DNA from: a virus
Virus record (IMG/VR): IMGVR_UViG_3300034012_002607
Span: 1-25,115 of that record
Length of the DNA: 25,115 nucleotides
Direction: 5' to 3' (one strand)
Positions 11,477-20,063 of the stretch are shown piece after piece (positions within the stretch are counted from its first letter, which is position 1; the number at the start of each line of letters is the position of its first letter). The notes beneath the pieces are model-generated. The model worked only from the letters and a program-made list of their open reading frames with translations. It was not told the origin of the DNA and made no database searches. The position numbers and the translations under genes were made by a program.

Positions 11477-11841
11477 TAGGACACCCTCCCTTCAACGAGA
11501 CCAACGCGGCGGGCGAGTTTGGCCCATGGGTAGGCGTGGGGTTGGAAGGAATTGCGGCGGTGCCAGATGGCCCACTCTTGGGGGTGTGTGGCTACGCGGA
11601 GAAATTCGCGGACTGGGTTCGCGTGGCCGACCGAGGCGGCGAGCTCGACGAACCAGGCGTTGGGGGGGAGGTCGTAGGTCATGGTGTTAGTGTCTGGGGA
11701 GTAGTGGACTTCGTGGGCGAGGAGGAAGACTTGCGGGGTGTTAAAAACGAGGCCGTGCGCCATGTGCCAGGCGAGGAGGGACTCGAAGGGTTCGGTGGTG
11801 TGTTCGTCATGCCAGTTGCGGGCGCGTTCCCAGGGGAGCAT
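11476..11841 (-). CDS. Hypothetical protein, 121 residues
   Basis: The start is the ATG at 11841, which shares its A with the tail collar stop (TAATG). An open frame upstream of it overlaps that gene and is spurious. The product is rich in His and Trp (NWHDEHT, AWHMAHG, AIWHRRN) and predicted soluble, with no signal peptide or clear catalytic motif. I do not recognise the family. It sits between the tail collar gene and a probable ejection protein, so a virion-associated, chaperone or modification role is possible. Translation of the next gene is coupled through TAATG at 11476. Confidence 0.75.
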   Translation of the reverse strand: MLPWERARNWHDEHTTEPFESLLAWHMAHGLVFNTPQVFLLAHEVHYSPDTNTMTYDLPPNAWFVELAASVGHANPVREFLRVATHPQEWAIWHRRNSFQPHAYPWAKLARRVGLVEGRVS

Positions 11842-12536
11842 TAGGCTTTGATGCAATACAACATGGCGATGTTGCGCGGGCGGGTTTCGGTGTCTCCAGC
11901 AGGGGATTGGCTGCTTGTAGTGAAACCGTGCTGGTGGCGGGCAGAGGCACCAGAAGTGGTATACATTTGGCCTCCAGCCCAAGCTACAGCCCCGCCAAGG
12001 TTGCCTTGCTGGTTTTGCCCAGAACTGGGGCCTACATTTTGGTGCGTATGATCTGGCGAGTCATTGCCAGTAGTTCCAGAATGCGTATGGCTGATCACTC
12101 CATCCGCTTGCTTGGCTCCAAAAGTGCCAGCGGCAACGCCATCGCTATTCGTGCCTGATCCTCGGACGAAATAGCCACGCAAGTCAGGAAGGGTAAATGT
12201 GGTGCTACCATCGCCAGCACCGTAAGTTGTCCCGATGGCTGCAAAGAGAGCGGCAAAGGCCGTGCGAGACACTGCCGATCCATTGGCTGCGAGCCATCCA
12301 CTTGGCGCGGTGTTCATGGCAAACGGCATGATGGCTCCGGTCGGCACAAGCGTGACGCTGGAGTTGAGCTTTTCCTGCGTGACCGCTCCGTTTGCAATTT
12401 TTGCCGTAGTCACATTGGCATCAACAATATCAACCGTAACTATGTTTGAGACTACTGGCGTAGCCGCCGAGTTGAGCTTTGCTGGGGTAACGACTTCTTC
12501 GTTTGTAAATGTGTAGCCTGGGGTGACGGTTGCCAT
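11841..12536 (-). CDS. Tail collar domain protein
   Basis: The 231-residue product contains an unmistakable phage tail collar domain at about 67-120: GAIMPFAMNTAPSGWL, then SRTAFAALFAAIGTTYG and FTLPDLRGYFVRG. The C-terminal part has His-rich turns (ISHTHSG, DHTHQN, RHQHGF) and the typical ending RPRNIAMLYCIKA. Such proteins form fibre tips or receptor-binding parts of the tail. The N-terminal 60 residues (VTPAKLNSAATPVV and a TTAKIANGAVTQEKL repeat) are an attachment and trimerisation stalk. It lies directly after the tail hub gene. Its start is preceded by a CTTAAAA heptamer and CTCC rather than a Shine-Dalgarno sequence. Confidence 0.93.
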   Translation of the reverse strand: MATVTPGYTFTNEEVVTPAKLNSAATPVVSNIVTVDIVDANVTTAKIANGAVTQEKLNSSVTLVPTGAIMPFAMNTAPSGWLAANGSAVSRTAFAALFAAIGTTYGAGDGSTTFTLPDLRGYFVRGSGTNSDGVAAGTFGAKQADGVISHTHSGTTGNDSPDHTHQNVGPSSGQNQQGNLGGAVAWAGGQMYTTSGASARHQHGFTTSSQSPAGDTETRPRNIAMLYCIKA

Positions 12537-12545
12537 GATTTGGAG

Positions 12546-12552
12546 TTTTAAG
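12546..12552 (-). repeat. Single CTTAAAA heptamer before the tail collar gene
   Basis: TTTTAAG on the + strand (CTTAAAA on the coding strand) ends 9 bases before the ATG at 12536, followed by CTCC. It is the same heptamer found in four-unit arrays at 16900, 17303 and 19977. Confidence 0.5.
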
Positions 12553-16100: not shown

Positions 16101-16348
16101 TCTTCGTCCTCCTCGTCTTCGTCTTCGGTTTCGTAAGGCCACAAAATTTCGTCGGCCTCGCGGCACAGGGCGCGGGCGGCGTAATCGTTGCCGAATTTTA
16201 GATCCATGTAGAAAGTCTCGCCCTCCGCTTCCCAACTCACGATGCAGAGGCCGACATCGAAATGCTCGGCGAGGAGCTGCCGGACTTGGAGCAGCACGGC
16301 CTCGCGGTCTTTGGGTGGGGAGGTTTTGGGTTTGCGCAGGCGGCTCAT
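16097..16348 (-). CDS. Hypothetical acidic-tailed protein, 83 residues
   Basis: The start at 16348 overlaps the lysin stop by ATGA and the stop overlaps the metallophosphoesterase start by ATGA. The N-terminus is basic (MSRLRKPKTSPPKDRE), the middle is a small alpha/beta unit (LLAEHFDVGLCIVSWEAEGE) and the C-terminus is a run of Glu/Asp. The family is not recognised. Coupling on both sides supports a real gene. Confidence 0.75.
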   Translation of the reverse strand: MSRLRKPKTSPPKDREAVLLQVRQLLAEHFDVGLCIVSWEAEGETFYMDLKFGNDYAARALCREADEILWPYETEDEDEEDEE

Positions 16349-16893
16349 GCGTTGCCCTCCTCGACGAGTAGGTAGGGGATGGTCTTCTGGTTGGCGCGGT
16401 CCATCTCGGAATAGACGAGAGCGACGAACGCGGGCCATTGGCTGGGGTGGATCGTCTGGCAGCCTTCGCTGCTGGTAGTGCGGGTGCCGCCCTTGTGGAT
16501 GTTGATTGCGATGCCCATCGAGTCGCCTTCGCCGTCGCGGGTCACGGGGAGTTGTTCGCCAGGCGTGGCGGGGCGGAGGGCGGGGTAGCCGCCGCCAGGC
16601 TTTAAGAGACCGTGCTTGCCTTTGCGGTAGCGATGCACGCCGGGCTTGAGGACGGCGATGCCTTTGCGCTTCACGCTGGGATCGGTATTCGCATTGAAGG
16701 TGGCGTAGGCGTTTGGGCTGATGAGAAAGATGGCGTCGTCATAAATGCCACGGTCGTTCTCGCCCGGCTTGCCCATGGTGTCGCGGTAGTAGCCGCGAAT
16801 GCCCACCAGAGCGACCTCATCGGCCACGCGGGCTTTTGTCAGCAGGGCTTGCGTCTTGGACTTGGCTTGTTGTGGTCGGCTCGGGGGGAGCAT
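16345..16893 (-). CDS. Probable endolysin/YkuD-like murein enzyme
   Basis: The 182-residue product carries near its C-terminus NIHKGGTRTTSSEGCQTIH. This matches the HxG ... S-x-GC signature of YkuD-type (L,D-transpeptidase fold) enzymes, with the cysteine as likely nucleophile and a conserved His before it. A region VGIRGYYRDTMG near residues 30-41 is also typical of a widespread prophage family that I recall being associated with lysis genes. No signal peptide is seen, so export would depend on the holin. It follows the holin, a small membrane protein and a lipoprotein, which makes a lysis cassette. Whether it cleaves or makes peptidoglycan cross-links cannot be told. The start is preceded by a four-unit CTTAAAA array. 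Confidence 0.7.
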   Translation of the reverse strand: MLPPSRPQQAKSKTQALLTKARVADEVALVGIRGYYRDTMGKPGENDRGIYDDAIFLISPNAYATFNANTDPSVKRKGIAVLKPGVHRYRKGKHGLLKPGGGYPALRPATPGEQLPVTRDGEGDSMGIAINIHKGGTRTTSSEGCQTIHPSQWPAFVALVYSEMDRANQKTIPYLLVEEGNA

Positions 16894-16899
16894 CAGGAG

Positions 16900-16927
16900 T
16901 TTTAGGTTTTAAGTTTTAAGTTTTAAG
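16900..16927 (-). repeat. Four-unit CTTAAAA heptamer array before the lysin gene
   Basis: On the + strand there are four units, TTTTAGG then TTTTAAG three times. It starts 6 bases upstream of the ATG at 16893, with CTCCTG between (coding strand), exactly where a Shine-Dalgarno sequence would sit. Confidence 0.75.
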
Positions 16928-16933
16928 TTCTCC

Positions 16934-16958
16934 CTCTGTGCTCTCTGTGTCCTCTGTG
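16934..16958 (-). repeat. CACAGAG period-9 repeat
   Basis: Three CACAGAG units (coding strand) at 16952-16958, 16943-16949 and 16934-16940 have a period of 9, and the set directly adjoins the heptamer array. Repeats of this type are dispersed in intergenic DNA of many environmental bacteria from my recollection. It sits just after the lipoprotein stop. Confidence 0.65.
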
Positions 16959-16959
16959 G

Positions 16960-17124
16960 TTATTTATCCTTGAGGGCGGGCAGCTCGGGGAGGGTGTAAG
17001 AAAACCTGCCGTAGTCCGTTTCGAGACTGACGCCGAGCGTGGTGCAGCCGGTGAGGAAGGAGATGGTCAGAAAAATATAGCCGAGGAGCAGGGCGCTTGC
17101 GGCGACTTGGGCGGGGCTGGTCAT
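16960..17124 (-). CDS. Small lipoprotein, possible Rz1-like spanin component
   Basis: The 54-residue product has an N-terminal hydrophobic signal (about 8-26, ASALLLGYIFLTISFLTG) ending in a lipobox LTGC with C27. A short mature part follows with Tyr, Pro and Leu (LPELPALKDK). The size and lipobox match the outer-membrane lipoprotein partner of a spanin pair, or a phage lipoprotein of superinfection-exclusion type. The start at 17124 overlaps the preceding stop by ATGA. It lies in the lysis cassette between a small membrane protein and the lysin. A Gram-negative host is implied if it is a spanin. Confidence 0.7.
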   Translation of the reverse strand: MTSPAQVAASALLLGYIFLTISFLTGCTTLGVSLETDYGRFSYTLPELPALKDK

Positions 17125-17288
17125 TTCTTCTCGTTGCGGAAAATCTCTACCAGGGCGATTGCCGCTGCCACGGCGCTGCCGATAGCTTCCCAATGTTGTG
17201 GAGAGAGGCTCAATCCGGCGAGGCCGCCGAGCACGGCGAGGCCGCGAAAAGTGGACGGTTGTTTTAGGTGCGAGAGGAATTTATTCAT
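17121..17288 (-). CDS. Small membrane protein of the lysis cassette (holin-like)
   Basis: The 55-residue product begins MNKFLSHLKQPSTFRG, followed by a hydrophobic stretch LAVLGGLAGLSLS, a short turn PQHWE and a second hydrophobic stretch AIGSAVAAAIALVEIF, ending in FRNEKK. Two short membrane passes with a basic tail fit a holin-like or accessory membrane protein. Its stop overlaps the lipoprotein start (ATGA), which supports coupled expression. The start is preceded by a heptamer array and a C-rich leader, with no Shine-Dalgarno sequence. Confidence 0.7.
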   Translation of the reverse strand: MNKFLSHLKQPSTFRGLAVLGGLAGLSLSPQHWEAIGSAVAAAIALVEIFRNEKK

Positions 17289-17302
17289 GGGGGAGGGAGG
17301 GG

Positions 17303-17330
17303 TTTTAAGTTTTAAGAATTAAGTTTTAAG
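17303..17330 (-). repeat. Four-unit CTTAAAA heptamer array between two membrane-protein genes
   Basis: On the + strand the units are TTTTAAG, TTTTAAG, AATTAAG, TTTTAAG. The array begins 14 bases upstream of the ATG at 17288 and contains the stop codon of the upstream holin gene (TAA at 17326-17328). The third unit is the variant, as in the array at 19977. Confidence 0.75.
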
Positions 17331-17511
17331 GGTCGTGCGGCGGGCGCTTCTTGTTGAGGATGGCGTAGAGCGAGGCCACGCCGACCGCGATGCCGACTAG
17401 GAGCGAGGCAATGCGCAGCCAGGCTTCGATCTCGGGAAGCATCGACACCCCGAGCCCCGTCGCCGTAGCGACGAGGCCGGTGAAGCTGGCTGTGGCTTGG
17501 TGGGTGTCCAT
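17326..17511 (-). CDS. Holin
   Basis: The 61-residue product has two predicted membrane segments, about 10-25 (FTGLVATATGLGVSML) and 31-52 (RIASLLVGIAVGVASLYAIL), and a basic tail NKKRPPHD. That size and topology match class II phage holins, which form the membrane lesion that releases the lysin. An upstream ATG in this frame overlaps the preceding tail-fibre gene, so 17511, 2 bases after that stop, is preferred. It opens the lysis cassette (holin, membrane protein, lipoprotein, lysin). Confidence 0.78.
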   Translation of the reverse strand: MDTHQATASFTGLVATATGLGVSMLPEIEAWLRIASLLVGIAVGVASLYAILNKKRPPHDP

Positions 17512-17513
17512 TG

Positions 17514-19295
17514 TTAGCTTAGCGCGGCGGCGAGTTGGGCTCCGGTGGTGGCCACGGTCGAGCATTGCGCGAGGCGGTCGGTCTGGAGCAGGTCGGTCTT
17601 GGCCTTGATGGCCGAGATGTTCGCGCTTGGGATGTCTCCGGTTGCAGCGGGCGAGGCGGGGAGATTGTCGGTCTTCGCTTTTATCGCGGCGAGCTGGGTG
17701 CTGTTGCTGTCGATTTCAGCGCGGATCGATGCTGCGCTTGGCACGGTTGGCGCGTTGGTCAAAGTATCGACCACGCCGCCGGTGATTTCGCGGGAGGCAG
17801 CTGACCAGACGGCGCTGGCGATTTCACCCTCGGTGGGCACATCGGGCGCGTTGGTGAGAGTTGTGACCGTGGCGAGCGTGCCGTTGGGGGCGAGCCTGCT
17901 TGAAACGGTTGCATCGAGGTTGTCCAGAGCGCCAGCGCGGGAGGTGGTGAGACCTTGCGCCGTGAGAGCGGATTGAACATTGGCGGTAGTAAGGATTGCT
18001 GTGCCGAAGCCTGCATCTACGGGGACTCCCAGACTAACCGACCCTGCGGCCGGGACTGCACAGGTGCCGGTGAGGTTGCCGCCTCCGTAGCTCACGCCGC
18101 TGCGGACATTGGCGGCGATGGGGTTGCCGAATGAGCCGTTGTCTGCGCCATACATGGTGAAATACGAATCGGTTGTGCCTGCGAGGGCGTAGCGTGTCTG
18201 GCCGAGAGTGGGGGCTGTGCCGAGACGCCACTTGCCACCGCTAACTGCTTTCCAGCCGCTCCAGTGGTCGAGGAAATCGCCGCTCAGGCGGACATCGGCG
18301 GCGGTGTTGGAGATGGATACGGCGTTTGAGAAGGCCGATGCGGTGAAAGTGCCTTGGCTAATGATGACCGTTCCGGTCAAGATGCTATTTAAGGCAAAGC
18401 ATGTGACATTGTTTCCAGCCATAAATGTGCAAGGCGCGCTCACATTAACCGAGCCAGTTGAGGTGTTTTGAAAACAGTGGCTGCTGGACCCGGCGCTCCC
18501 GGCTGTGAATGTGCAGGACGCGCTGACATTGACCGCTCCGGTTGAGGCGTTGTTAAGGGCGAGGGCGGTGCCAGACCCCCCGGCTGTGAATGTGCAAGAC
18601 GCGCTGACATTGACCGTTCCGCTTGAGGCGTTGTTGAAAGCTGACCCCGTGAATCCGCCTGTGAATGTGCAGGACGCGCTGACATTGACCGTTCCGGTTG
18701 AGGCGTTGTTAAGGGCGAAGGCGGTGCCGTTGCTGCCTCCCGTGAATGTGCCATTTCCCAGAGTGCAAGTCGTGGTGCCTGCATAGTTGCACCCATGCGC
18801 TCCTGCCGCCGATCCTCCCACGACGCGCAGCCCGTCCAGAGTCAACGCGGTCGCGCCGGTAACCGAGAGGCAGGTGGTCGTGCCTGCGCGGAGGTCGGTG
18901 GTGATGGTGAAGGGCGAGGACATGGCAAACGATCCGCCGCCGCCTGTGGCTCCTGCGGCGGTGTTTGAGGCAGTGGTGAGCGTGGCGAGAGCGCGGGCGG
19001 TGCCTGTGCCGGTGCCTGCGCCGGTGGCGAGGAATATCGTGCCTGCGGTGTTAGAGGCTGCGCCGATGCCGGTCCATGAGGTGGTGCCGACGAAGAGGAT
19101 TTCATACCACTGACCAGCGACGAAAGAACCGGCGTTGACGGTGGGGTTGTTGGCTCCGCCGATGTTGATGTTTTGGTTGATCGTGACATTAAATCCATTG
19201 GCGTAAACGGTGTCGCCGTTGCCGGGGAGGACGCCGCCGTTCCATGTGCTGGTCGATGACCAGTTGCCGTTTGCGATAGCGCGTGCTGTGGCCAT
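17514..19295 (-). CDS. Beta-helical tail fibre/appendage protein with internal repeats
   Basis: The 593-residue product starts with STSTWNGGVLPGNGDTV, a form often seen at the start of phage appendage proteins. A module near 60-105 (YEILFVGTTSWTGIG, ATGAGTGTGTA) recurs in many phage structural proteins. Residues about 165-310 form a tandem repeat of 25-28 residues with the core NVSASCTFT, each unit with one Cys, as expected of a right-handed beta-helix. The C-terminus (about 450-593) is Ala/Thr-rich with repeats such as LTNAPDVPTEGEIASAVW and LAAIKAKTDNLPAS, which suggest a trimeric stalk or coiled coil. The likely role is host recognition or surface attachment. A depolymerase is possible, but no catalytic motif is seen. 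Confidence 0.82.
   Translation of the reverse strand: MATARAIANGNWSSTSTWNGGVLPGNGDTVYANGFNVTINQNINIGGANNPTVNAGSFVAGQWYEILFVGTTSWTGIGAASNTAGTIFLATGAGTGTGTARALATLTTASNTAAGATGGGGSFAMSSPFTITTDLRAGTTTCLSVTGATALTLDGLRVVGGSAAGAHGCNYAGTTTCTLGNGTFTGGSNGTAFALNNASTGTVNVSASCTFTGGFTGSAFNNASSGTVNVSASCTFTAGGSGTALALNNASTGAVNVSASCTFTAGSAGSSSHCFQNTSTGSVNVSAPCTFMAGNNVTCFALNSILTGTVIISQGTFTASAFSNAVSISNTAADVRLSGDFLDHWSGWKAVSGGKWRLGTAPTLGQTRYALAGTTDSYFTMYGADNGSFGNPIAANVRSGVSYGGGNLTGTCAVPAAGSVSLGVPVDAGFGTAILTTANVQSALTAQGLTTSRAGALDNLDATVSSRLAPNGTLATVTTLTNAPDVPTEGEIASAVWSAASREITGGVVDTLTNAPTVPSAASIRAEIDSNSTQLAAIKAKTDNLPASPAATGDIPSANISAIKAKTDLLQTDRLAQCSTVATTGAQLAAALS
18421..18780 (-). repeat. Internal tandem repeats of the tail fibre gene
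   Basis: Five units begin near 18421, 18505, 18586, 18661 and 18742, spaced 75, 81 or 84 bases, all multiples of three. The second to fourth are nearly identical over about 45 bases (GTGAATGTGCAGGACGCG and GACATTGACCG on the + strand), the first is diverged and the last is partial. They encode the Cys-containing beta-helix units. Confidence 0.8.
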
Positions 19296-19298
19296 GGC

Positions 19299-19580
19299 TT
19301 AGAGTCCTTTCTCGACGATGAATTGTTGGAGGGCGGATTGGATCGCGCCCACGGTGGCGAGTGTGGCTTCGTCGGCATGAGCGAGCGAGCCGAGGCGGAT
19401 GGACTTCGCGTGGGCGGGCTGGGTCTCGACCATGCCGTCTTCGATGCGGAGCGGGGTGAGGTTCATCACTACCGATGCCTCTGGCTTGCCTTCCCCGTCA
19501 TAGCTGCCAGAGATGATGAGATTGAGGGCGTAGCGGTCGTATTGCTTTGAGTCGATGCTGGATGGTGCGGATGCGATCAT
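19299..19580 (-). CDS. Hypothetical structural protein, 93 residues
   Basis: The start at 19580 avoids the 34-base overlap that the upstream ATG (19634) would make with the preceding gene. The product has a beta-rich centre (QYDRYALNLIISGSYDGEG) and a helical C-terminus (ATVGAIQSALQQFIVEKGL). I do not recognise the family. It lies between two tail-fibre genes, so a tail or fibre accessory role is likely. The leader is A-rich and has no Shine-Dalgarno sequence. Confidence 0.72.
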   Translation of the reverse strand: MIASAPSSIDSKQYDRYALNLIISGSYDGEGKPEASVVMNLTPLRIEDGMVETQPAHAKSIRLGSLAHADEATLATVGAIQSALQQFIVEKGL

Positions 19581-19600
19581 GGTGTTTGGATTTTTTGGGT

Positions 19601-19969
19601 TTAAGAAAATTGGAGGGAGGTTTTGGAAGACCACTGCCCGACTGCGGATTGCTCGGAGGAGACATTGCCTGCGGCGTCGGTGGTGATTTTGTAGATGGTC
19701 CAGGCGGTGGCGTCCTCGGCTGGGCCGCTTGAGGGGTAGTCGGCCCAGGCGAGGCGGCCCATGTAGAGGGTGGTGCCGTCGGTGGCGGAGAGTTGCAGGT
19801 AGTCGCTGGGGTCGCGGGGGCGGGCGAGGCGGAAGACTTCTCCCAGGTGGTCTTTGGAATACATGCGCCGGTCGGCGAGGTTGAGGGCGAGGCTCCCTTC
19901 GGCCACTTGCGCGGCGGTAGGGACTCGGCCGGGAACCGTGGAGCGGAGGAGCTGGATGACCGTGGCCAT
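19601..19969 (-). CDS. Tail appendage protein with tropism-determinant-like N-terminus
   Basis: The 122-residue product begins IQLLRSTVPGRVPTAAQVAE, then GSLALNLADRRMYSKDHLGE. This is the short beta unit at the N-terminus of many phage fibre or tropism proteins (major tropism determinant N-terminal type), which attaches them to the tail. A second small domain rich in Trp and Tyr follows. The start is preceded by a four-unit CTTAAAA array and CTTCTCC. It could act as a fibre connector for the neighbouring fibre proteins. Confidence 0.72.
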   Translation of the reverse strand: MATVIQLLRSTVPGRVPTAAQVAEGSLALNLADRRMYSKDHLGEVFRLARPRDPSDYLQLSATDGTTLYMGRLAWADYPSSGPAEDATAWTIYKITTDAAGNVSSEQSAVGQWSSKTSLQFS

Positions 19970-19976
19970 GGAGAAG

Positions 19977-20004
19977 TTTTAAGTTTTAAGGATTAAGTTT
20001 TAAG
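19977..20004 (-). repeat. Four-unit CTTAAAA heptamer array before a tail appendage gene
   Basis: On the + strand the units are TTTTAAG, TTTTAAG, GATTAAG, TTTTAAG. The array starts 7 bases upstream of the ATG at 19969. The third unit is again the variant, as at 17303. Confidence 0.75.
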
Positions 20005-20023
20005 CAGGGGCCCCGTGGAGCGA

Positions 20024-20045
20024 TGGCGCGGGCTGGACCGCGCCA
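20024..20045 (-). other. GC-rich hairpin in a gap between tail genes
   Basis: TGGCGCGG (20024-20031) and CCGCGCCA (20038-20045) form a perfect 8-bp stem with a 6-base loop. A GGGGCCCC palindrome follows at 20007-20014. There is no T-run, so it is not a standard intrinsic terminator. It may stabilise or slow the transcript. Confidence 0.4.
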
Positions 20046-20063
20046 CCGCTGTGGGGAGGGAGG

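Follow-up and report, generated by a model that had tools for sequence, protein, structure and literature searches.

Three arrays of the heptamer CTTAAAA, each of four tandem units, lie just upstream of start codons in a viral sequence record 25,115 bases long (IMGVR_UViG_3300034012_002607; hereafter the window, to which all positions refer, the arrays being read on the minus, coding strand). We propose, with a probability of about two in three, that they act as translation-initiation leaders of a non-Shine-Dalgarno (non-SD) type. Each array would provide about 28 nt of unstructured, A-rich and G-free mRNA standing in for the SD sequence just before the AUG. The 30S subunit would land on this RNA, most plausibly through a putative contact with ribosomal protein S1, so that the gene could be initiated independently of the one upstream. 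The SD-poor bacteria of the family Terrimicrobiaceae would use such heptad leaders for core genes, and their phages would use the same form for tail and other genes. An S1-type translation enhancer had been one of three readings in the original prediction, next to a regulatory site and a mobile repeat; it is the best supported because of the orientation of the arrays, their modal spacing of 6-8 nt, the loss of SD motifs, the lack of structure, their conservation and their presence before host core genes. It is partly borne out, the role of S1 being putative: that the array raises initiation and that S1 reads it are what we infer from sequence comparison.

Array A (CTTAAAA CTTAATC CTTAAAA CTTAAAA, 19977..20004) is separated from the ATG at 19969 by the 7-nt spacer CTTCTCC (19970..19976), which is pyrimidine-rich and lacks G. 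Array B (CTTAAAA CTTAATT CTTAAAA CTTAAAA, 17303..17330) is followed by a 14-nt spacer and the ATG at 17288, and the TAA stop codon of the preceding gene is part of its first unit. Array C (CTTAAAA CTTAAAA CTTAAAA CCTAAAA, 16900..16927) lies 6 nt from the ATG at 16893. A single unit (12546..12552), also on the minus strand, is followed by the 9-nt spacer CTCCAAATC and the ATG at 12536. The heptamer occurs 10 times in the window, always on the same strand, against 1.16 copies expected and a maximum of 4 in 100 shuffles, and 300 Markov-simulated windows gave not a single array of at least two units. The claim that three four-unit arrays and one single unit stand near starts was therefore confirmed, with spacers of 6, 7, 9 and 14 nt and numbers far above chance, but three of its details had to be amended. 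The variant unit said to be the same third unit of two arrays is present in both; it is third only on the plus strand and second on the coding strand, and it differs by one base between them (CTTAATC and CTTAATT). The array at 16900 lacks the variant second unit and ends in CCTAAAA. Finally, the CTCC said to follow the arrays was seen, but it belongs to the pyrimidine-rich spacer and not to the array, because array-less orthologues of the gene starting at 16893 retain it (..AACTCCCCATG).

The arrays are widespread among viruses. The exact 28-mer CTTAAAACTTAATYCTTAAAACTTAAAA was found in >100 viral-contig stretches, and a scan of viral contigs with CTTAAAACTTAANNCTTAAAACTTAAAA gave at least 119; among the 144 copies listed, the free NN is TC (66) or TT (62), and nearly all copies lie directly before the ATG of many different genes. 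Within 30 nt downstream of viral arrays of at least two units, an ATG-initiated open reading frame (ORF) begins on the same strand in 168/187 cases and on the opposite strand in 18/187, among the matches listed, with spacers mostly of 5-10 nt and a mode of 6-8 nt. The corresponding counts in Terrimicrobiaceae are 29/43 and 7/43. Thus, the search of related phages and hosts suggested with the original prediction did find arrays before starts in both. The ORFs downstream of phage and host arrays belong to 42 unrelated gene families. Phage records in INPHARED gave only short, unrelated matches to the window region 15.5-20.5 kb. Two viral contigs that apparently represent another phage group (L086 and L120) carry pure CTTAAAA arrays of four units right before ATG, and other heptamers, of the CTTTCCG, CTTCATC and TCTCAAA types, form leaders before starts elsewhere (L033, L013, L058, L462).

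The context of the arrays matches A-rich, putatively S1-type initiation: the leaders are rich in A and free of structure, and the host makes little use of SD sequences although its anti-SD is intact. The host 16S end, GGATCACCTCCTTTCT, is a canonical anti-SD, and SD use is weak (20% versus a background of 9.5%); a value of 10% has been given for Spartobacteria (PMC10783764). SD-like motifs precede 1/56 array genes and 110/571 others. The leaders of array genes contain 7.7% G, compared with 22.4% for the others, and their minimum free energy is -4.6 compared with -13.7 kcal/mol. A full-length S1 is encoded in 5/6 host genomes.

Comparison of phage orthologues showed that the array can be strongly conserved, exchanged or lost. 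For locus A, orthologues were picked by protein A alone (n=80); the full four-unit array is present in 64/80, 8 more have a point change or three units, and three array-less orthologues carry AAACTNN heptads in its place. Pairwise identity at this locus reaches 98% within the array, compared with 84% for the 5' flank and 76% for third codon positions. At locus B, the array is found in 17/57 orthologues, always with four units, and in all 17 the upstream stop codon lies 34-46 nt before the AUG, at the array start. In 36 of the 40 array-less orthologues, there is instead an overlap of 4 or 8 nt between the start and an upstream ORF, taken as the longest open frame. Locus C has arrays in 24/43 orthologues; in the others the leader is short or built of a different heptamer (CTTTCCG CCTTCCG CTTTCCC ATTTCCG). 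Absence before orthologous genes had been named beforehand as an observation that would speak against a function; it was encountered in part, in many orthologues at two of the three loci (40/57 and 19/43). Where the array is missing there, the genes overlap, the leader is shorter or it consists of another heptamer, so the array represents one solution rather than an obligatory one. Phages are mosaic at loci B and C, where array-less alleles differ by more than the array and no target duplication was seen by eye.

In the bacteria, periodicity was measured in groEL, tsf and rpsD leaders taken from 21-22 genomes of the family, and its main peaks fall at lags 7 and 14 (z of 11.5, 3.8 and 12.2 at lag 7, and of 9.6, 6.0 and 9.3 at lag 14). 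The unit itself differs between species at one host gene (CTTAAAA, CTGAAAA, TCTCAAA, GAATTAG). Three rpsD leaders have the SD-like AGGAAAGG in place of heptads, and SD-like motifs are found in 0/13 rpsD leaders with high lag-7 periodicity versus 3/9 of the others. The groEL leaders of several species keep the second unit CTTAATY and the total length; their remaining units change mainly between C and T, and there is hardly any G (1.1 per 40 nt). No clear lag-7 rise was detected at gene starts in 400 kb of host genome G001, nor in those phage genes that lack CTTAAAA arrays, and the heptads therefore mark a subset of genes. Some Terrimicrobiaceae tsf leaders (L428-L432) carry a TCCGACCGA-type repeat of about 9 nt instead of heptamers.

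The phage form of the array is concentrated in one bacterial family. It was found in 7/26 genomes of Terrimicrobiaceae (Verrucomicrobiota; the family holding M30B24) and in 1/388 genomes sampled across the phylum, that one being M30B24 itself; outside the family it was seen in one Competibacteraceae contig (L135). Pure CTTAAAA arrays are present in many phyla, with a weaker association with starts (39/140 versus 13/140). The window's portal-like protein has relatives of 73% and 71% identity in two Terrimicrobiaceae genomes, as against at most 33-35% in the phylum sample, and so this phage group probably infects Terrimicrobiaceae. One of these two genomes (G412) lacks the array, which is also absent from the examined part of its prophage-like region. 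Host genes after arrays, identified by eye from their N termini, are groEL, rpsD, tsf, argS, der, pilT, metF, and chorismate mutase-like and exbD-like genes; the groEL array sits directly after groES. Copying from gene to gene, and from host to phage or the reverse, has likely spread the arrays, given a density of about 120 per Mb for the window as against 2.5 per Mb for the 400 kb of host sequence. At three sites of G001 (L477, L481, L482), no gene follows the CTTAAAA array; what comes next is a repeated GC-rich sequence whose end is GGGCGAGCAAAGCGAG or similar, and the two together are a composite dispersed repeat.

Several observations weigh against a role in initiation. Among 271 genes called over 400 kb of one host, only 1 has a strong heptad leader, which is thus not a general initiation signal; 14/43 host arrays are not before genes, and neither are those of the three composite repeats. 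The array is often missing from orthologues at loci B and C and hence is dispensable. Start codons were called by crude rules, and the counts, uncorrected for relatedness, are not independent because the sequences are phylogenetically related. Part of the 98% identity at locus A could stem from homogenisation between copies. Furthermore, the known preference of S1 is weak and leaves the 7-nt period unexplained. This period could reflect tandem duplication of a favourable unit, or it could itself be read. Under the initiation model, the repeats would arise by tandem duplication and dispersal under selection for initiation. It is doubtful, by comparison, that the heptad period itself is the signal, as in a ribosome-recruitment element whose tandem 7-nt units are read by a repeat-binding factor, serving core genes of Terrimicrobiaceae, taken over by phages and related through a CTNAWAA core to the TAACTGA heptamers compared below.

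A short repeat of dispersed or selfish nature, propagated through recombination, slippage or a mobiliser and lying before starts only because gaps tolerate it, would explain the same 28-mer before many unrelated families, the presence of other dispersed repeats nearby (CACAGAGG 9-mers and the GC-rich sequence of the composite host repeat) and the pure arrays of many phyla; since the TAA of the unit stops every frame, such an array would also be barred from genes. We nevertheless consider it unlikely, as tolerance alone predicts neither a single orientation and a near-fixed spacer, nor 98% identity in fast-evolving phages, nor four units nearly throughout at loci A and B, nor heptamer swaps at the same gene, and neither target duplications nor a mobiliser was seen. 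What survives of the proposed mobile unit is its dispersal, which the 42 downstream families make real, and not an insertion sequence with visible target duplications. The arrays might instead define a regulon, read by a heptad-specific RNA-binding protein or a complementary small RNA. One sequence across unrelated host and phage genes, with a near-fixed copy number at A and B and a conserved variant second unit, would fit such a site, and S1, Csp or CsrA-like readers have been proposed for TAACTGA repeats (MacGregor 2015, PMC4679880). However, one and the same gene has different units in different species, the targets have no obvious common function, many orthologues lack the array and no candidate regulator was identified, which makes this reading rather unlikely.

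An A/T-rich island in GC-rich DNA, uniformly oriented and upstream of genes, might also be a transcription promoter, for instance a phage late promoter yielding leaderless or near-leaderless mRNA. This is very improbable: a sigma-70 scan matched none of the arrays, the arrays lie inside gene clusters and at locus B overlap the previous stop codon, one stands before groEL directly after groES and others before many kinds of host gene, and their spacing is tied to the AUG. A T7-like, phage-specific promoter would be dispersed in phages only, yet the same sequence precedes host core genes. The mosaicism of loci B and C and the position of arrays at gene borders are what a phase-variable repeat or a recombination linker of mosaic phages would produce, but copy number does not vary (four in nearly all A orthologues and in all 17 array-bearing B orthologues), and host arrays also precede conserved core genes, so that this possibility is extremely slight. 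An all-frame stop insulator, based on the TAA in the unit, was rejected because the alternative heptads CTTCATC, CTTTCCG and TCTCAAA occur at the same position without stops.

The genes downstream of the arrays are all on the minus strand. Gene A (19601..19969) encodes 122 aa with an N terminus related to phage tail-fibre/baseplate proteins (PHROG 1699, E 3.6e-11); gene B (17121..17288), a small hydrophobic protein of 55 aa (PHROG 8494, unknown function); and gene C (16345..16893), 182 aa (PHROG 3000, unknown function, E 2.2e-11). The gene preceding B (17326..17529, minus strand) codes for a small membrane-like protein, holin-like by eye and without a family match. The single unit precedes a tail collar fibre gene (11841..12536; PF07484, E 3.4e-25; PHROG 523), before which some relatives have a full array. 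Just upstream of array A, a GC-rich hairpin of 13 bp (20019..20050, minus strand; z -5.07) is kept in 23 aligned relatives, with one pair exchanged between C-G and U-A in 9/23 and a second between G-C and G-U; it is possibly a processing or attenuation site. Upstream of array C, three 9-mers of CACAGAGGA type (16932..16958, minus strand) form what looks like a second dispersed repeat family, as their 26-mer CACAGAGGACACAGAGAGCACAGAGG occurs in 57 viral-contig stretches among the matches listed and a variant lies near one host array (L244). An imperfect tandem repeat of 75-81 bp (18498-18728, minus strand) is found within a 593-aa gene (17514-19295). An integrase-like ORF, recognized by eye at 353-1513 on the plus strand, opposite to the structural genes, suggests a temperate phage.

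What guides ribosomes in bacteria with an intact anti-SD but few SD sequences is an open question. The arrays are a discrete, portable candidate signal common to host housekeeping and phage genes, and natural alleles of one gene may carry an array, another heptamer, an SD or an overlap. If confirmed, they would offer a non-SD signal open to testing, a tool for expressing genes in Verrucomicrobiota and a marker by which uncultured phages could be assigned to a host family.

No relevant description of these exact repeats was found in the open-access literature. The short tandemly repeated repetitive (STRR) heptanucleotides of cyanobacteria are similarly 7-nt tandem units dispersed in genomes; unlike the arrays, they are to our knowledge not tied to start codons. 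Non-SD, S1/A-rich initiation is described for Bacteroidetes (PMC6847099, PMC5397173), and AU-rich 5'-UTR (untranslated region) enhancers are known in E. coli (Komarova 2005, as cited in PMC5397173). As in Bacteroidetes, the lineage is SD-poor with a conserved CCUCC, and the leaders combine low structure with an A-rich stretch over -12 to -15, where S1 domain 4 has been placed (PMC6847099). In contrast to the Kozak-like context of Bacteroidetes, A at -3 is missing in three of the four window starts (spacers CTTCTCC, CCCCTCCCTCCCCC and CTCCTG) and present only in CTCCAAATC, and the leaders are discrete tandem heptamers where those of Bacteroidetes and E. coli show a base bias. The closest precedent in the sources available is the TAACTGA heptamer of Beggiatoaceae, some cyanobacteria and Bacteroidetes (MacGregor 2015, PMC4679880). 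That report describes 7-nt direct repeats in two to six copies, in forward orientation just upstream of starts, with SD sequences mostly absent downstream despite a canonical anti-SD, RNA predicted to be unstructured, some sets split by related units, and core genes among the targets, all as observed here. The rotation CTGATAA differs from CTTAAAA at 2/7 positions, and the CTGAAAA arrays of G001 differ from it at one; owing to the two mismatches, our arrays would work like that class without belonging to it by sequence. The largest TAACTGA class ends 1 nt before the start, whereas a pyrimidine-rich spacer of 6-8 nt intervenes here; the phyla differ, and phages, none of which figure in the sections consulted, carry the arrays here. 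Judged against it, the present system brings in phages and a new phylum, together with a family-specific form and evidence from orthologue comparisons, and it is a variant of the TAACTGA kind rather than the same repeat.

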